From Accumulibacter sp. (lineage in GTDB: Bacteria; Pseudomonadota; Gammaproteobacteria; Burkholderiales; Rhodocyclaceae), in the NCBI RefSeq assembly GCF_029255285.1, contig NZ_JAPUVI010000067.1, positions 1-44,677 of the forward strand: 44,677 bases of DNA, read 5' to 3'. Below the pieces are notes generated by a model. It was given only the letters and a program-made list of their open reading frames with translations, was not told the DNA's origin and ran no database searches. Below are positions 21,935 through 44,316 of this stretch, one piece after another. Every line of letters begins with the position of its first letter. Positions within the stretch are counted from its first letter, which is position 1. Position numbers and translations under genes: made by a program.

Positions 21935-23905
21935 TCAGCGCCGGAGTTCGATCCGATCACGGAAGAACTCCAGCGCCTCGGGGTTGGCGAGAGCCTCGAT
22001 GTTCTTCACCGGTCGGCCATGGACAACATGGCGAACTGCCAGTTCGACGATCTTGCCGCTTTTCGTACGCGGAATGTCGGCCACCTGCAGCACCCGCGCC
22101 GGCACGTGACGCGGCGTCGTATTCTGTCGAATCTGCTGCTTGATCCGGTTGATCAGCGTGTCGTCGAGCACGACCCCGTCGCGCAGCTTGACGAACAGGA
22201 CGACGCGCACATCGTGCTCCCAGTCCTGGCCGATGACCAGCGACTCGACAACCTCGGGCAATTGCTCGACCTGGCGATAAATCTCGGCGGTGCCGATACG
22301 GACTCCACCGGGATTGAGAACGGCGTCCGAGCGGCCGTAGATAATCATTCCTTCGTTGCCGGTCAGCTCGACGAAATCACCATGGCACCAGACGTTGGGA
22401 AAGCGATCGAAGTAGGCGGCGTGGTACTTGGCTCCCTCCGGGTCGTTCCAGAAACCGACCGGCATCGCCGGAAACGGCGCGGTGCACACCAGTTCGCCGC
22501 GTCCACCACTGCCCGGTGCGAGCGGCTGGCCCGCCTCGTCGAATACGTCGACCGCCATTCCGAGGCCACGGCACTGCAGTTCGCCGCGGTAGACGGGCAA
22601 CATCGGATTGCCCAGCGCGAAGCACGACAGGATGTCTGTACCGCCCGAAATCGAAGCCAGCAGGAGGTCAGGCTTGATGTCGCGGTAGACATAGTCGAAG
22701 CTTTCCGGCGCCAGCGGACTGCCTGTCGAGAACATCACCCGCAGATCGTCGAGCCGGTGACTTAAGCGCGGCTGCAGCCCGTTCTTGGCGATCGCGTCGA
22801 TGAACTTGGCCGACGTGCCGAAGTGCGTCATCCGCTCCGCGTCGGCATAGTCGAAAAGAATCGTCCCGGCCTGGCCCGAGGCCGTACGAACGAAAGGGGA
22901 TCCGTCAAAGAGCAGCAGCGTGGCCTGCGAAGCGAGCGCGGAGAGCAGCCAGTTCCACATCATCCAGCCGCAGGTCGTGAAGTAGAAGATCCGGTCGCCG
23001 GCCCGCAGGTCGCCGTGCAGCTGGTGCTCCTTGAGGTGTTGCAGCAAGGCGCCGCCGTGACAATGGACGATGCATTTCGGAACGCCTGTGGTGCCCGACG
23101 AAAACATGATGAACAGCGGATGCTCGAAAGGCACTGGCAGGAAGTCGATGTCCTCATCGGCATACGGGGCAAGGAAGTCGGCCCAGCTCACGCCATGGGC
23201 GATCGTCCCCGCCCCGGCGGCATCGTCGACATACGAAACGACGACGGTACGAGTCAGCGATGGCAGACGCACGGCTACCTCGGCGTTCTTCGCCAGGCAA
23301 TCGACAGGCCGGCCGTTGTACCAGTAGGCGTCGACGCAAAGCAGAACCTTCGGTTCGATCTGCCCAAAACGGTCGAGAACGCCTTGCACGCCGAAATCGG
23401 GCGAGGCTGACGACCAGATCGCGCCAAGCGACGTCGTGGCGAGCATGGCGATGACGGTTTCCGGCATGTTCGGCAGGTAAGCGGCAACGCGGTCTCCGCG
23501 GCCGACGCCGGCCGCCCGCAGCGCCTGCGCGCAACGCGAAACCTGAGCGTACAGCTCACGGTACGAGAGGCGGCGCTGGAGTTGCGCTTCGCCCCAAAAG
23601 ACCAGCGCGTCGCGTTCGTCACGGCAACGCAGCAGATTTTCCGCATAGTTGATCCGGGCTTGTGCAAACCAGCGTGCACCGGGCATTCGGTCGCCGTTTT
23701 CCAGCACGCTCGCGCCGCGTTCGCCGAGGACCCCGCATTCGTCCCAGACCGATGCCCAGAAGTCGCGCGGCTGGGCTACCGACCAGCGCCACAGGCTCGG
23801 GTAATCGGTGCAACCGGCTTGCCAGCGGCGGTTCACCGACAGCATGAAGGCGCTGATCCTGGCGGCAGCGATTCGTTCGGCGCTCGGGCGCCACAGTGCT
23901 TCCAT
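21935..23905 (-). CDS. aacS: acetoacetyl-CoA synthetase
   Basis: A 656-residue adenylate-forming ligase that activates acetoacetate to acetoacetyl-CoA, linking ketone bodies to polyhydroxyalkanoate and fatty acid metabolism. The ATP-binding motif [10 protein letters not shown] is near residue 268, and the C-terminal lysine motif is TKSGKIVE. The N-terminal ACS domain ([37 protein letters not shown]) and stretches such as [13 protein letters not shown] and [11 protein letters not shown] are characteristic of acetoacetyl- rather than acetyl-CoA synthetase. I chose ATG at 23905 because AAGGAGG precedes it at ideal distance; the frame is open six codons further. It is the last gene of a minus-strand run with a thioesterase and acyl-CoA dehydrogenase. 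Confidence 0.92.
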
Positions 23906-23931
23906 CCCCTCCTCCTTATCCACAAGTACGG

Positions 23932-40744: not shown

Positions 40745-41368
40745 ATGATTCCAGACCGCCTCATCCTTGAATTCGACAAGGTCATGCGCACCCTGTTCGC
40801 GCCGGCGTCGAGCCGCCGAGAAGTGCCGGGCGGCGCGCTGCCGGAAGCCACCCTGTCGGACCGCGAACGCCAACATGCCGGCGCCTTGATGCGCATCGAC
40901 CATGTCGGCGAGGTGTGCGCCCAAGCGCTTTACCAGGGGCAGGCGTTGACCTGCCGGGATATGGCGCTGCGGCACGCGCTACAACGGGCGGCCGACGAGG
41001 AAACCGAGCACTTGGCCTGGACCGAGCGTCGTCTAGCCGAACTCGGTGCCCGTACTAGCCTACTCAATCCTCTCTGGTTTGTGGGTGCGCTATCCATCGG
41101 GGCGCTTGCCGGGAAACTTGGAGACCACTGGAGCCTGGGTTTTCTGGCAGAAACCGAGAGGCAGGTCGAGGCGCACCTTGACGATCACTTGCGCAATCTG
41201 CCAATGCAGGATCTGAAATCGCGTGCCATCCTTGAACAGATGCGCCTGGATGAGATTTCACACGCCGAAACCGCCGTACGCCTCGGGGCCCGTCGCCTGC
41301 CGATGCTCGCCAGGTTGGCCATGAAGTTTGCCGCGCGGTCGATGACACGTGCTGCTTATCACGTATAG
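40745..41368 (+). CDS. coq7: Coq7-type demethoxyubiquinone hydroxylase
   Basis: A 207-residue di-iron monooxygenase that adds the C6 hydroxyl in ubiquinone synthesis. Ligands fit the ferritin-like di-iron pattern: Glu56 (DHVGEVCAQALYQGQ), Glu86 and His89 (DEETEHLAW), Glu138 (LAETERQVEAH), Glu170 and His173 (DEISHAETA). The TLSDRERQHAGALMRIDHVG opening is typical of the bacterial Coq7. The presence of ubiquinone synthesis agrees with ETF and acyl-CoA dehydrogenase in the same window. It lies 148 bases after the CNP1-like gene. Confidence 0.94.
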   Translation: MIPDRLILEFDKVMRTLFAPASSRREVPGGALPEATLSDRERQHAGALMRIDHVGEVCAQALYQGQALTCRDMALRHALQRAADEETEHLAWTERRLAELGARTSLLNPLWFVGALSIGALAGKLGDHWSLGFLAETERQVEAHLDDHLRNLPMQDLKSRAILEQMRLDEISHAETAVRLGARRLPMLARLAMKFAARSMTRAAYHV

Positions 41369-41882: not shown

Positions 41883-42234
41883 TCCTTACTCCTCGCCTTG
41901 TTTGGGGACGGTCACGACGCGGCGGAGGTTTCTCAACTGCTCTCAAAACTGACAGCGCGTAAAGACACCACCAACCAGGAAAGCTTTGCCGACCGTGCGC
42001 TCGCCCCTGGGGGGAATTGTATCCCCAAGCCGGGGCGCCATCTCGGTGAGCATGTGCTGCGTTGCAACATCGCCGCCGCCGGTTCGGCTGCCAGGAGGCT
42101 CTTTACATTGTTCACTATTATGTAACCGATATCACTATTTGTACGTAAACGTATGAACATTAATTATTTTAATCAAAAAAAACGCTCGCCTGTCGAGGCT
42201 ACCCAAAAAAAATGGCGCAACGCACAAAAAATAC
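41883..42234. other. non-coding regulatory island, partly AT-rich
   Basis: No supportable gene. It contains a nested palindrome (42003-42036: GCCCC and GGGGC outside, GGGGA-ATTGTA-TCCCC inside), an inverted repeat TTACAT/ATGTAA (42103-42108, 42120-42125), TACGT-AA-ACGTA-like repeat (42142-42153) and an AT-rich stretch to 42180. Three A-tracts (42175-42182, 42205-42212, 42226-42231) lie in phase before the next promoter. Confidence 0.45.
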
Positions 42235-42263
42235 TTGACCTTTCCTCTTGGGTGAACCATAAT
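42235..42263 (+). promoter_or_regulatory. near-consensus sigma-70 promoter of candidate small RNA
   Basis: TTGACC (42235-42240), exactly 17 bases, CATAAT (42258-42263), five of six matches at each element. Phased A-tracts lie just upstream. The expected transcript starts near 42270. Confidence 0.7.
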
Positions 42264-42269
42264 GATCCC

Positions 42270-42381
42270 AGGTTAGGCAGTTTGGTGATTGGTTGTCGTA
42301 ATTGGTCATCTCCGTTTGTCTCCTCCACCCTCCTCCTTTGGTGTGGATTTAGCGCGATTCCACCGAGTCGCGCTTTTTTTT
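42270..42381 (+). ncRNA. candidate small RNA (or attenuated leader) with anti-Shine-Dalgarno tract
   Basis: About 110 nucleotides between a strong promoter and an intrinsic terminator, with no convincing reading frame. A C/U-rich single-stranded tract, CTCCTCCACCCTCCTCCT (42320-42337), carries several copies of CCUCC, complementary to ribosome-binding sites. GTGGA (42343-42347) can pair with TCCAC (42359-42363), which would compete with the terminator stem. Either it is a trans-acting small RNA, or the attenuated leader of the ECF sigma gene that begins 425 bases after the terminator. I do not recognise a named RNA family. Confidence 0.55.
42351..42381 (+). terminator. intrinsic terminator of the candidate small RNA
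   Basis: AGCGCGA, 10-base loop, TCGCGCT (7-bp perfect stem), followed by a run of eight T (42374-42381). This is the best Rho-independent terminator in the window. Confidence 0.85.
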
Positions 42382-42805
42382 GCCGCAAGAGATTCCGCCG
42401 CCGCTGCGCTGCGTTCACTAACTCTCCCGATGCGCGACGCAACTTCATGGATTTCGCTGCAGACCAGCGCCACGGCACGCTCGCCGCAGTCGATCCGCAT
42501 CCCAGGTCCTCCACGCCGCGTAGACGGAGATGATGAGGCCCCATGCGCCGCAGCAGCGGTCCCCTTGGCCTTGACCGAAGAGGCCAGGCCGGCTATTGCG
42601 ATGGCAACACTCACCGGCTTCGCCCTTTCGAAATCTGACCTGTATGCCATTACCCCATTCCGGCGAGCGGCCGTCCCTAACTCGAAGCCTGCCTACTCTC
42701 CTGGAGCGGGCCAGCTACGTCGTCAACCTGAGGCTCCGGCTTTGCGGAGGCATCCACGTGGCAAGAGAATTTGGCCATCAGCCAACTGTCAGGCAAAATG
42801 CTTCC
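42382..42805. other. non-coding stretch upstream of ECF sigma gene
   Basis: About 420 bases. Overlapping open frames exist on both strands but none has a recognisable domain. A minus-strand frame has a short chemoreceptor-like stretch (EIHEVASRIGRVSERSAAAA), too weak to call. It should carry the sigma operon promoter, but I see no clear sigma-70 or ECF-type match. Confidence 0.35.
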
Positions 42806-43444
42806 ATGGAAGAATGGCAACAAGCTGGGCAAGCAAACACGGCAGGCGGCGCGAGCACCCTGCCGTCTTCGCCAGCCAACGACAGATACTTGGAAGACTT
42901 GGTCGCGCGCATCGTACGCCAGGACCAACAGGCTTTAGGCGAACTTTACGAGGCGATGGCTGGGCGCGTCTATGGACTGGCACTGCGCATTACCCGCCAC
43001 GTGCAGACCGCCGAGGAAGTCGTCGAAGATGCTTTCTGGCAGGTCTGGCGACAGGCGCCACGCTTCGATGCGACGCGTGGCCGGGCGGTGGCCTGGATCT
43101 TGACCATAGCGCGTAGCCGCGCGCTCGATGCTCTACGCCGCAGCGATTGCGCTGAGCCGCTCGAAGAGGAAGAACTGGCGGAACTCCCGGCGGGAGGCGA
43201 TCCGCACGATCTGCTGGTGGCCATACAGCGTGAACACCGGTTGCACGCGGCACTGCGAGGCCTCGATCCCTTACCTCGACAGCTGGTCGCACTGGCCTTC
43301 TTCCGGGGCCTGTCGCATGACGAAATCGCCAGCCAGATGAGCCTCCCGCTTGGTACCGTAAAGTCTCACATTCGACGCGCGCTACTGCGCCTTCGTGAGT
43401 CTCTCGGGGCCGGTGCCCCGCATTCCGGAATGGTGACCCCATGA
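42806..43444 (+). CDS. ECF-family RNA polymerase sigma factor
   Basis: A 212-residue alternative sigma factor. Region 2 is complete: DLVARIVRQDQQALGELYEA, ALRITRHVQTAEEVVEDAFW and VWRQAPRFDATRGRAVAWIL, then ARSRALDALRR. Region 4 follows: LDPLPRQLVALAFFRGLSHD, EIASQMSLPLGTVKSHIRRA. Together with the cupin protein whose start overlaps its stop (ATGA), it fits the RpoE-ChrR type (ECF11-like) known for singlet oxygen and organic peroxide responses. ATG 42806 (MEEWQQAGQ) is chosen because upstream frame sequence is not conserved; its ribosome site is weak. The targets are unknown, but osmC and the small RNA lie nearby. Confidence 0.88.
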   Translation: MEEWQQAGQANTAGGASTLPSSPANDRYLEDLVARIVRQDQQALGELYEAMAGRVYGLALRITRHVQTAEEVVEDAFWQVWRQAPRFDATRGRAVAWILTIARSRALDALRRSDCAEPLEEEELAELPAGGDPHDLLVAIQREHRLHAALRGLDPLPRQLVALAFFRGLSHDEIASQMSLPLGTVKSHIRRALLRLRESLGAGAPHSGMVTP

Positions 43445-43470
43445 ACAGCGACCCCATGAACAGCGACCCC
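43441..43470 (+). repeat. tandem 15-bp duplication at the cupin gene start
   Basis: ATGAACAGCGACCCC occurs twice back to back (43441-43455 and 43456-43470), duplicating the start codon and four further codons in frame. Confidence 0.9.
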
Positions 43471-44316
43471 GGGATGACACTCCGTGCCGCTGAAGACGGC
43501 GGCGGCCATGGCGAACTCAACGAACTCATTTGCCAAGGGCTGGCGGACGTGCCTCTCCCAGCGGCTCGCTTGGCCGACCTACGCACGGCACTCTTACAAC
43601 GTGTCGAGGCGAGCGTTCGCCGGCACGCCGGCCTGCTCACCGTTCGCCCTGGCGACAGTCCTTGGCGCAGCGTCAAGACCGGGGTGCGGGCCCGAATTCT
43701 CTGGCGAGGCCCGCAAGGTGCTTCGGTACTGATCGAGTTTGCGCCCGGAGCGAGCTTGCCGGTGCATCGCCATCGCCATCTCGAGGAAGGAATCGTGCTG
43801 CGTGGTAGCCTGCAACTGGGAGCTCTGGAGCTAGGTCCGGGCGACTATCACGTCTCGCCTGCCGGCAGCCGGCATGGCCGCATATCGTCGCCCAGCGGCG
43901 CCCTCGCCTTCCTGCGAGGCACATCTCTTGGTGGTGGCCATCACCGGGCCGTCGTCGGCGAACTCCTGGGTGGCCTGCTACCGCACCAAGGGCCACGCGT
44001 GCACACCGTCCTCGCCATGCAGGGAAAGTGGGAGAGCATCGCCGTAGGGGCTCAAGAGAAACTCCTCTGGCAAGACGGCGACGCGACTTCACGCTTCATT
44101 CGTCTGGAACCTGGGAGCCGCGTCATCGGACACACCCACGATGGCGATGAGGAATGCATGATGCTGAAAGGCGACGCGTACTTTGGCGATCTGCTGGTGC
44201 AGGCCGGCGAGTTTCACCTGGCGCCGGCCGGTAGCGTGCACGGCGAAGTAAGCAGCGACCACGGCGCTCTGCTGTTCGTGCGTGGCCGCGCAGCACGACC
44301 CCTGCCCCCACGTTAG
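43441..44316 (+). CDS. ChrR-like double-cupin protein, putative anti-sigma factor
   Basis: A 291-residue protein with two cupin domains. The first has His109, His111/113, Glu115/116 (VHRHRHLEEG) and His145; the second has His231, His233, Glu237/238 (GHTHDGDEECMML) and His267, so both may bind metal. In Rhodobacter ChrR an N-terminal zinc anti-sigma domain holds RpoE and a C-terminal cupin senses singlet oxygen. Here residues 20-65 are helical (LNELICQGLADVPLPAARLA) but the HxxxCxxC zinc motif is missing; only Cys31 is there. The start overlaps the sigma stop as ATGA, and the first five codons (MNSDP) are repeated exactly, so a second start at 43456 is possible. The stop codon lies in a probable IS target site. 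Confidence 0.82.
   Translation: MNSDPMNSDPGMTLRAAEDGGGHGELNELICQGLADVPLPAARLADLRTALLQRVEASVRRHAGLLTVRPGDSPWRSVKTGVRARILWRGPQGASVLIEFAPGASLPVHRHRHLEEGIVLRGSLQLGALELGPGDYHVSPAGSRHGRISSPSGALAFLRGTSLGGGHHRAVVGELLGGLLPHQGPRVHTVLAMQGKWESIAVGAQEKLLWQDGDATSRFIRLEPGSRVIGHTHDGDEECMMLKGDAYFGDLLVQAGEFHLAPAGSVHGEVSSDHGALLFVRGRAARPLPPR

Follow-up and report, generated by a model that had tools for sequence, protein, structure and literature searches.

The locus between osmC and an ECF sigma gene in this Accumulibacter DNA raises the question of which RNA is made there and what switches it on. Accumulibacter is a main phosphate remover in wastewater plants. The whole stretch of DNA that was analysed, 44,677 nucleotides long, is called the window. 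The window RNA is a new copy of a known betaproteobacterial family of small RNAs (sRNAs) that block ribosome-binding sites. The sRNA itself is ordinary, and the part that may be new is a conserved PhaR-like block upstream of its −35 hexamer. The features of the region are as follows.

40745–41368: coq7 (COQ7 match)
42205–42234, forward strand: conserved block of an A-tract, a PhaR-type palindrome and an AAATAC spacer, directly upstream of the −35
42212–42228, forward strand: PhaR-type box ATGGCGCAACGCACAAA, 2 mismatches to YTKNTGCRNYGCANMAR, ending 6 nt before the −35
42235–42240, forward strand: −35 hexamer TTGACC (promoter scan)
42258–42263, forward strand: −10 hexamer CATAAT (promoter scan), 17 nt from the −35
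42270–42316, forward strand: predicted 5′ leader of about 47 nt, its start placed 7 nt past the −10
42284–42310, forward strand: leader hairpin (fold prediction)
42317–42381, forward strand: RF02278 core (Rfam match), the probable short form of about 65 nt
42317–42326, forward strand: anti-Shine-Dalgarno site 1, UGUCUCCUCC (from the sequence), corresponding to the 5′ end of the short S17 form in the available text of PMC11722255
42324–42347, forward strand: stem-loop 2 (model alignment and fold)
42331–42339, forward strand: anti-Shine-Dalgarno site 2, the loop of stem-loop 2, UCCUCCUUU (unpaired probability 0.86)
42351–42381, forward strand: intrinsic terminator, stem 42351–42374 followed by a T run, kept in relatives
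42596–44316: ECF sigma and ChrR-type cupin genes

The whole window was searched with the covariance models of 4227 Rfam families, and a single match exceeded its cut-off. Positions 42317–42381 matched RF02278 (Betaproteobacteria_toxic_sRNA) with 66.4 bits against a cut-off of 50 (E = 2.5e-11), over the full length of the model (positions 1–64 of 64). The window RNA has two hairpins, CU-rich unpaired sites and a 3′ terminator, as RF02278 demands. The predicted fold of 42270–42381 (112 nt) has a free energy of −38.5 kcal/mol (z = −4.64), and none of 200 shuffles was equally stable. The first-pass annotation had read the element as a small RNA standing on its own and carrying anti-Shine-Dalgarno sites, which agrees with the family match and the fold. 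It had also called it an orphan with no named betaproteobacterial family, and this is excluded by the RF02278 match; transcription and repression have been published for relatives. Membership in other families was rejected, namely NmsRb (RF02877; 31.4 bits versus a cut-off of 52, a weak match across 42282–42379), ncS54 (RF02871; 28.6 versus 43) and suhB/mmgR (RF00519; 18.4 versus 41). The last score removes the alphaproteobacterial RNAs, cited earlier as a precedent, as family members, but the precedent itself was apt, MmgR being reported to be under AniA/PhaR control. Judging from the sequence, membership in RF02278 together with an anti-Shine-Dalgarno action is almost certain when the question of PhaR is left aside. 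Transcription, cleavage, the use of Hfq, the targets and the binding of PhaR with its sign are predictions for the window RNA.

The promoter, TTGACC-N17-CATAAT, matched at 10 of 12 positions over both hexamers, confirming the near-consensus sigma-70 promoter with 17-base spacing that had been proposed. The run of eight T ending at 42381 was also as described, but the terminator stem consists of 10 pairs (6 of them G-C) around a 4-nt loop and not of 7 bp. Three CCTCC units (42322–42326, 42329–42333 and 42332–42336) bear out the several CCUCC units of the annotated tract, although the C/U tract at 42319–42339 is interrupted by a single A (TCTCCTCC-A-CCCTCCTCCTTT) and is not an unbroken 18-base run. 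Loss of the terminator in relatives, which the first-pass annotation had named as grounds for refutation, was looked for, and the reading stands unrefuted. A stem of six or more pairs, G-T included, and five or more T followed the core in 24/25 genus and 27/27 family loci, and in 105 of the 116 named loci among the matches listed. The 12 misses, inspected by eye, show inverted repeats in which the loops are longer, the stems bulged or the T runs weaker, or else a doubled terminator; in the last case (L054) the stem is apparently duplicated in tandem at the sRNA end. The 196 parsed loci, duplicates included, carried 85 different terminator stem sequences. The 33-nt core was identical in 167 of the 196, a figure that is inflated, many loci having been fetched by that core. 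A looser terminator count of 193/196 was set aside because the parsing rule had already demanded a T run and the loci contained duplicates.

The region had been described as lacking a convincing frame. Two open frames (42153–42533 and 42289–43116) do cross it, but no frame is kept in the leader, which is anywhere between 32 and 120 nt long in the genus (24/25 loci with a promoter called). The varying leader length without a kept frame speaks against coding.

The own genome carries one copy of RF02278. The family was found in 25 of 28 genomes of the same genus (Candidatus Accumulibacter), including 23/23 of good quality, in 188/199 genomes of the same family (149 over the cut-off), in 99/150 genomes of the order (59 over the cut-off) and in 37/143 genomes of the class (just 2 over the cut-off), each set including the window's own genome. 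The exact 33-nt core occurs in at least 119 genome stretches, and a named-copy search in plasmids gave no match. An IMG/VR viral contig (L260, 55–79, minus strand) matches the sRNA core exactly over 25 nt, and this piece may be host DNA that flanks a provirus. Copy number is uneven: close copy pairs lie at about 3305531–3308856 in G212:C1 and 98270–101597 in G332:C31, and three genomes (G369, G416 and G175) have 8–9 matches each, some below the cut-off, versus one in Accumulibacter. In the window, the order is coq7, osmC, sRNA. The osmC gene was beside the sRNA in 25/25 genus, 26/27 same-family and 16/29 order loci, and coq7 in 23/25, 20/27 and 7/29, respectively; most of these loci span 3 kb, and a missing osmC or coq7 can reflect this reach.

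Site 1 (42317–42326) and the loop of stem-loop 2 (42331–42339) are complementary to strong Shine-Dalgarno sequences. Published work on relatives, in the texts as available, covers transcripts, Hfq binding, processing and repression via complementarity to ribosome-binding sites, and the anti-Shine-Dalgarno mode is described there for NmsR in Neisseria and by reporter work on S17. The pattern AAGGAGGAG-N3-9-ATG was found at 9 places in the own genome, and a reversed-pattern control gave 0. A strong ribosome-binding site does not by itself make a target, and the predicted targets are forecasts. NCBIfam was searched with six of the 9 candidate proteins; among the 9 is a frame of 43 codons, which may not be a real gene. 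Matches over the cut-off were obtained for an acetoacetate-CoA ligase and for the phenylacetate-CoA ligase PaaK. The acetoacetate-CoA ligase is encoded in the window itself at 21935–23905 on the minus strand (21935–23917 with its ribosome-binding site) and is a candidate target, since that site, AAGGAGGAG, can pair with the C/U sites. The best matches of the others were below the cut-off: a LivH-like permease, an LdhH/GlcF-like iron-sulfur protein, an AtoC/NtrC-like sigma-54-dependent response regulator and a weak StpA-like protein.

For the comparison of promoters in the genus, sequences were anchored by a TTGA and a CATAAT-like hexamer (at least 5/6) at 17-nt spacing, which worked for every one of the 25 genus loci. 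When these 25 promoters were aligned on the −35, the block at 42205–42234 carried at least 1 bit at 26 of its 30 positions, and the mean over the 30 positions further upstream was about 0.2 bits. The likeness of the block to phasin promoters was then tested on published motifs. In the available texts, YTKNTGCRNYGCANMAR is given as the palindrome for PhaR in R. eutropha, with up to three mismatches accepted (PMC12849132), and TG[N]TGC[N]3GCAA as the motif for PhbF, the homologue of this PhaR in Herbaspirillum (PMC3206438). A box with at most 2 mismatches to the palindrome was found within 170 nt upstream of the core in 24/25 genus and 27/27 family loci, and in 102 of the 116 named loci among the matches listed. 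Such a box occurred in 4.0–4.6% of dinucleotide shuffles and in 1.7–2.9% of other 170-nt stretches from the same loci; at up to 3 mismatches, 25–30% of shuffles had one. None of 100 letter-permuted palindromes equalled the real counts (best singles 22/25, 5/27 and 36/116). The 116 are those of the 119 fetched named loci with enough upstream sequence; the named set overlaps the other sets, and the loci are related. One locus (L031) was counted as a miss, and its 2-mismatch box at −178, beyond the counted range, was not added. In members with short leaders the box overlaps the −35, hence part of the match is the −35 itself.

Within the window, 10 matches at up to 2 mismatches were found versus 7.25 expected, which is not significant; the case for the PhaR box is therefore a comparative one. 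At the start site in the window there is no second match of this quality. A second PhaR-like match at 42054–42070 (GTGCTGCGTTGCAACAT, 2 mismatches) falls in the interval from osmC to the sRNA, and its quality is at chance level. The sRNA box is one mismatch off TGCRNYGCACAAA, its left half-site being CGC and not TGC. The exact TGCRNYGCACAAA occurs at one place in the own 4.19 Mb genome, a phaP promoter, where TTTGTGCGGCGCACAAA directly precedes TTGACA-N17-TATAAT in the same layout as at the sRNA promoter. The own genome has four phasin-family genes; the pair on contig C107 has a box before its first gene, and a pattern look revealed no box at the two remaining genes. A 19-nt genus motif was rejected as a regulatory unit: the genome holds it at one place, the next-best sites differ at 3 positions, and no other gene was indicated. 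The published PhaR motif proved more useful.

The presence of PhaR was then compared with that of the box. The own genome has one PhaR gene (PF07879 at G000:C2:77765–77944, 105.5 bits). The sRNA locus was fetched from 29 genomes of the order; PhaR (PF07879) was present in 21 of these and absent in 8. A box with up to 3 mismatches was found in 20/21 genomes with PhaR versus 1/8 without (Fisher p = 3.9e-5, kinship ignored), and at up to 2 mismatches the counts were 15/21 versus 1/8 (p = 0.0097, kinship ignored). The 8 genomes without PhaR fall in 5 families and so represent few lineages; in 7 of them the best match had 4–5 mismatches, that is, no box. One genome of the order with PhaR (G447) also lacks the box. 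In the own family, PhaR was found in 191/199 genomes (190 over the cut-off), and the sRNA in 183/191 genomes with PhaR versus 5/8 without (p = 0.006). Three same-family drafts without PhaR (G181, G302 and G352; 96, 90 and 87% complete) have retained a box with 1 mismatch; in the remaining two such genomes with RF02278 matches, these matches are below the cut-off, one genome having no box and one being unparsed. In genus g194, two genomes without PhaR have no sRNA and a third has sub-cut-off matches only, and both searched genomes with PhaR have the sRNA over the cut-off, with best boxes of 3 and 1 mismatches. The co-occurrence of the box and PhaR supports PhaR control and is not proof of it. 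The box is missing at eight loci (L228, L229, L230, L231, L233, L234, L236 and L237), 7 of whose 8 genomes are without PhaR. The box-less promoters of this L228–L237 group contain other recurring elements, such as ATTAGATAAT, and perhaps answer to a different regulator.

Other readings of the locus were weighed against these data. The terminator lies upstream of the ECF sigma gene on the same strand, as expected if the element were an attenuator or leader of that gene, and the first-pass annotation had offered an attenuator and pointed to the neighbouring ECF sigma/cupin stress operon. The sRNA is kept, however, while the ECF/cupin genes adjoin it in 1/25 genus loci, the window itself, and in 0/27 other same-family loci, and no downstream gene was conserved with it in the genus and family loci among the four window genes looked for. 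Three of the 25 genus loci extend less than 410 nt downstream of the sRNA, and in L093 (Accumulibacter UW9-POB) the ECF/cupin pair lies about 3.6 kb downstream; with these caveats the comparative data contradict an attenuator, which we consider very improbable. A functional tie to the operon was likewise rejected, the adjacency being confined to the window among the 25 genus loci. A looser linkage in the L093 sub-lineage is possible, and a local rearrangement is the likely origin of the position of the ECF/cupin genes. The element might also be non-functional, its promoter and terminator having arisen by chance. Simple scans are at chance level for both, with 2 promoter-like matches in the window versus 1.0 ± 0.8 in shuffles and 4 terminator-like matches versus 4.2 ± 2.3, but the E value of the RF02278 match and its presence in 25/28 same-genus genomes contradict this reading, and we give it hardly any credence.

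The main competitor accepts the RF02278 sRNA as published and dispenses with PhaR, the upstream block then being the site of another regulator or an UP element. The box retained in the three drafts without PhaR, the A-tract within the block and the degenerate left half-site of the window (CGC for TGC) are all in its favor. It is nevertheless unlikely, if a possibility to be taken seriously, as set against the match of the box to a motif from published PhaR sites and its resemblance to the PhbF motif, the phaP promoter of the same layout that holds the only exact TGCRNYGCACAAA of the genome, and the lack of the box in 7/8 order genomes without PhaR. A further proposal concerns the leader. If the primary transcript hid site 1 by pairing it with its own 5′ end, cleavage would be an activation switch. 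In the window, site 1 is unpaired with a probability of 0.07 in the long form versus 0.89 in the short form, 0/60 leader shuffles gave a value as low, and in the available text on B. pertussis the overexpressed long form S17L was without effect on the two genes tested. The relatives speak against it: mean values were 0.585 in the genus (24 members) versus 0.601 with shuffled leaders, and in the family site 1 was more open (0.668, 25 other members) than with shuffled leaders (0.495). Promoters for this test were called in 24/25 genus and 25/27 family loci, and two of the family calls, which give leaders of 168 and 194 nt, are open to doubt. The idea that relatives share a masking of site 1 by their leaders was thus rejected, masking being strong in the window and showing no trend among relatives, and a cleavage switch of this kind seems improbable.

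The explanation that we prefer is an RF02278 sRNA that blocks ribosome-binding sites and has a PhaR-controlled promoter. RNA polymerase would start near 42270 and stop at 42381, and the primary RNA would probably be cut near 42317, as S17 is. The two C/U sites would then pair with strong Shine-Dalgarno sequences and stop the translation of uptake and catabolic mRNAs. The promoter would probably be under PhaR, which leaves DNA on binding polyhydroxyalkanoate granules, and the sRNA would accordingly be made, or withheld if PhaR activates, according to the stored carbon. At phaP1, which PhaR represses in the available account, one of the two footprinted sites is a box immediately upstream of the −35; from this position, repression would therefore be expected here, to be lifted when granules form. 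PhaR is also described as able to activate (phaP3). The B. cenocepacia relatives are reported, in the portions available, to be raised in biofilm, starvation and glucose medium, which would fit either repression or activation. In S. meliloti, the MmgR sRNA is under negative control of AniA (PhaR) and itself reduces phasins, according to the accessible part of a review (PMC8401924). This precedent moved our estimate of PhaR control here up by a small step, and it makes PhaR acting on an sRNA less new as an idea. From the sequence comparisons, we take control of the sRNA promoter by PhaR to be fairly probable, and the whole explanation is probable to the same degree.

A wider claim would be that PhaR directly controls RF02278 sRNAs across much of Burkholderiales (in the GTDB sense), and that the granule store sets the level of a broad anti-Shine-Dalgarno RNA shutting down uptake and catabolism; we consider the chances of this evenly balanced. 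In Accumulibacter, the shut-down set would perhaps include a sigma-54-dependent regulator and acetoacetate-CoA ligase. No link of RF02278 sRNAs to PhaR or PHA was found among the matches listed from the open-licence literature, and the main texts of PMC5688073, PMC4603805, PMC11722255 and PMC10987360 contain no mention of PhaR. The riboregulation of PHB in Cupriavidus necator is called still undeciphered in the part of PMC8401924 that was available. If the promoter reading is true, it explains what switches on RF02278 RNAs and connects stored carbon with a shutdown of translation in Accumulibacter. A transcription factor that senses a polymer would then govern a switch at the level of translation, in an organism that lives by making and spending this very polymer. 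Together with the AniA/PhaR–MmgR pair, unrelated by score, PhaR and a C/U-rich sRNA would form a recurring circuit in two bacterial classes.

Among known systems, the closest are the published members of RF02278, which are described here from the parts of the reports that were available. They are ncS03, ncS05, ncS27 and ncS62 of B. cenocepacia, Hsnc059, 063, 086 and 107 of H. seropedicae, and S17 of B. pertussis. The B. cenocepacia and H. seropedicae RNAs share with the window RNA the same full-length model, two hairpins and CU-rich unpaired stretches. Expression of the four copies of B. cenocepacia was confirmed for the family by northern blots, and growth inhibition of E. coli by cloned members of the family has been reported. 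The genome of the window has one copy, whereas B. cenocepacia and H. seropedicae have 4 each. Three of the B. cenocepacia RNAs are very short, nearly the two hairpins alone, and ncS27 (92 nt) can be processed; ncS27 attenuates growth and affects catabolic genes. An unexplained common upstream motif was described in three of the four B. cenocepacia copies (Fig. S3 of PMC5688073), and it may be the PhaR-type box.

S17 is Hfq-bound, is processed to 67 nt and represses the gene of a sigma-54-dependent regulator (PMC11722255, in the text available), and a 27-nt region of it was reported to be 100% conserved. Like the window RNA, it lies near coq7 and has a sigma-A promoter with a 17-nt spacer, a leader, a C/U core and a terminator. 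S17 and the window sRNA are both near coq7 and are therefore taken as orthologues. The short forms are of 67 nt in S17 versus about 65 nt in the window RNA, and the leaders of about 123 nt (190 minus 67) versus a predicted 47 nt or so. Unlike at S17, osmC separates coq7 from the sRNA in the window, and the dependence on Bvg is Bordetella's own, as far as the available text goes.

Systems outside the family resemble the window RNA in parts, again as given in the accessible text of their reports. MmgR (alpha-r8, RF00519) is an Hfq-dependent RNA of a PHB producer under AniA (PhaR) control, with the same promoter logic as proposed here. Its promoter motif, however, lies between the −35 and the −10, together with NtrC, whereas the window box is upstream of the −35; MmgR is also alphaproteobacterial, lowers phasins and has a family score below the cut-off. 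NmsRA and NmsRB of Neisseria, with three stem-loops and with C/U sites between SL1 and SL2 and in the SL2 loop, work alike but are non-members. The phaP promoters regulated by PhaR (R. eutropha phaP1 and the PhbF targets of H. seropedicae) have the palindrome likewise directly upstream of the −35. The phaP boxes drive a phasin gene, whereas the window box drives a small RNA.
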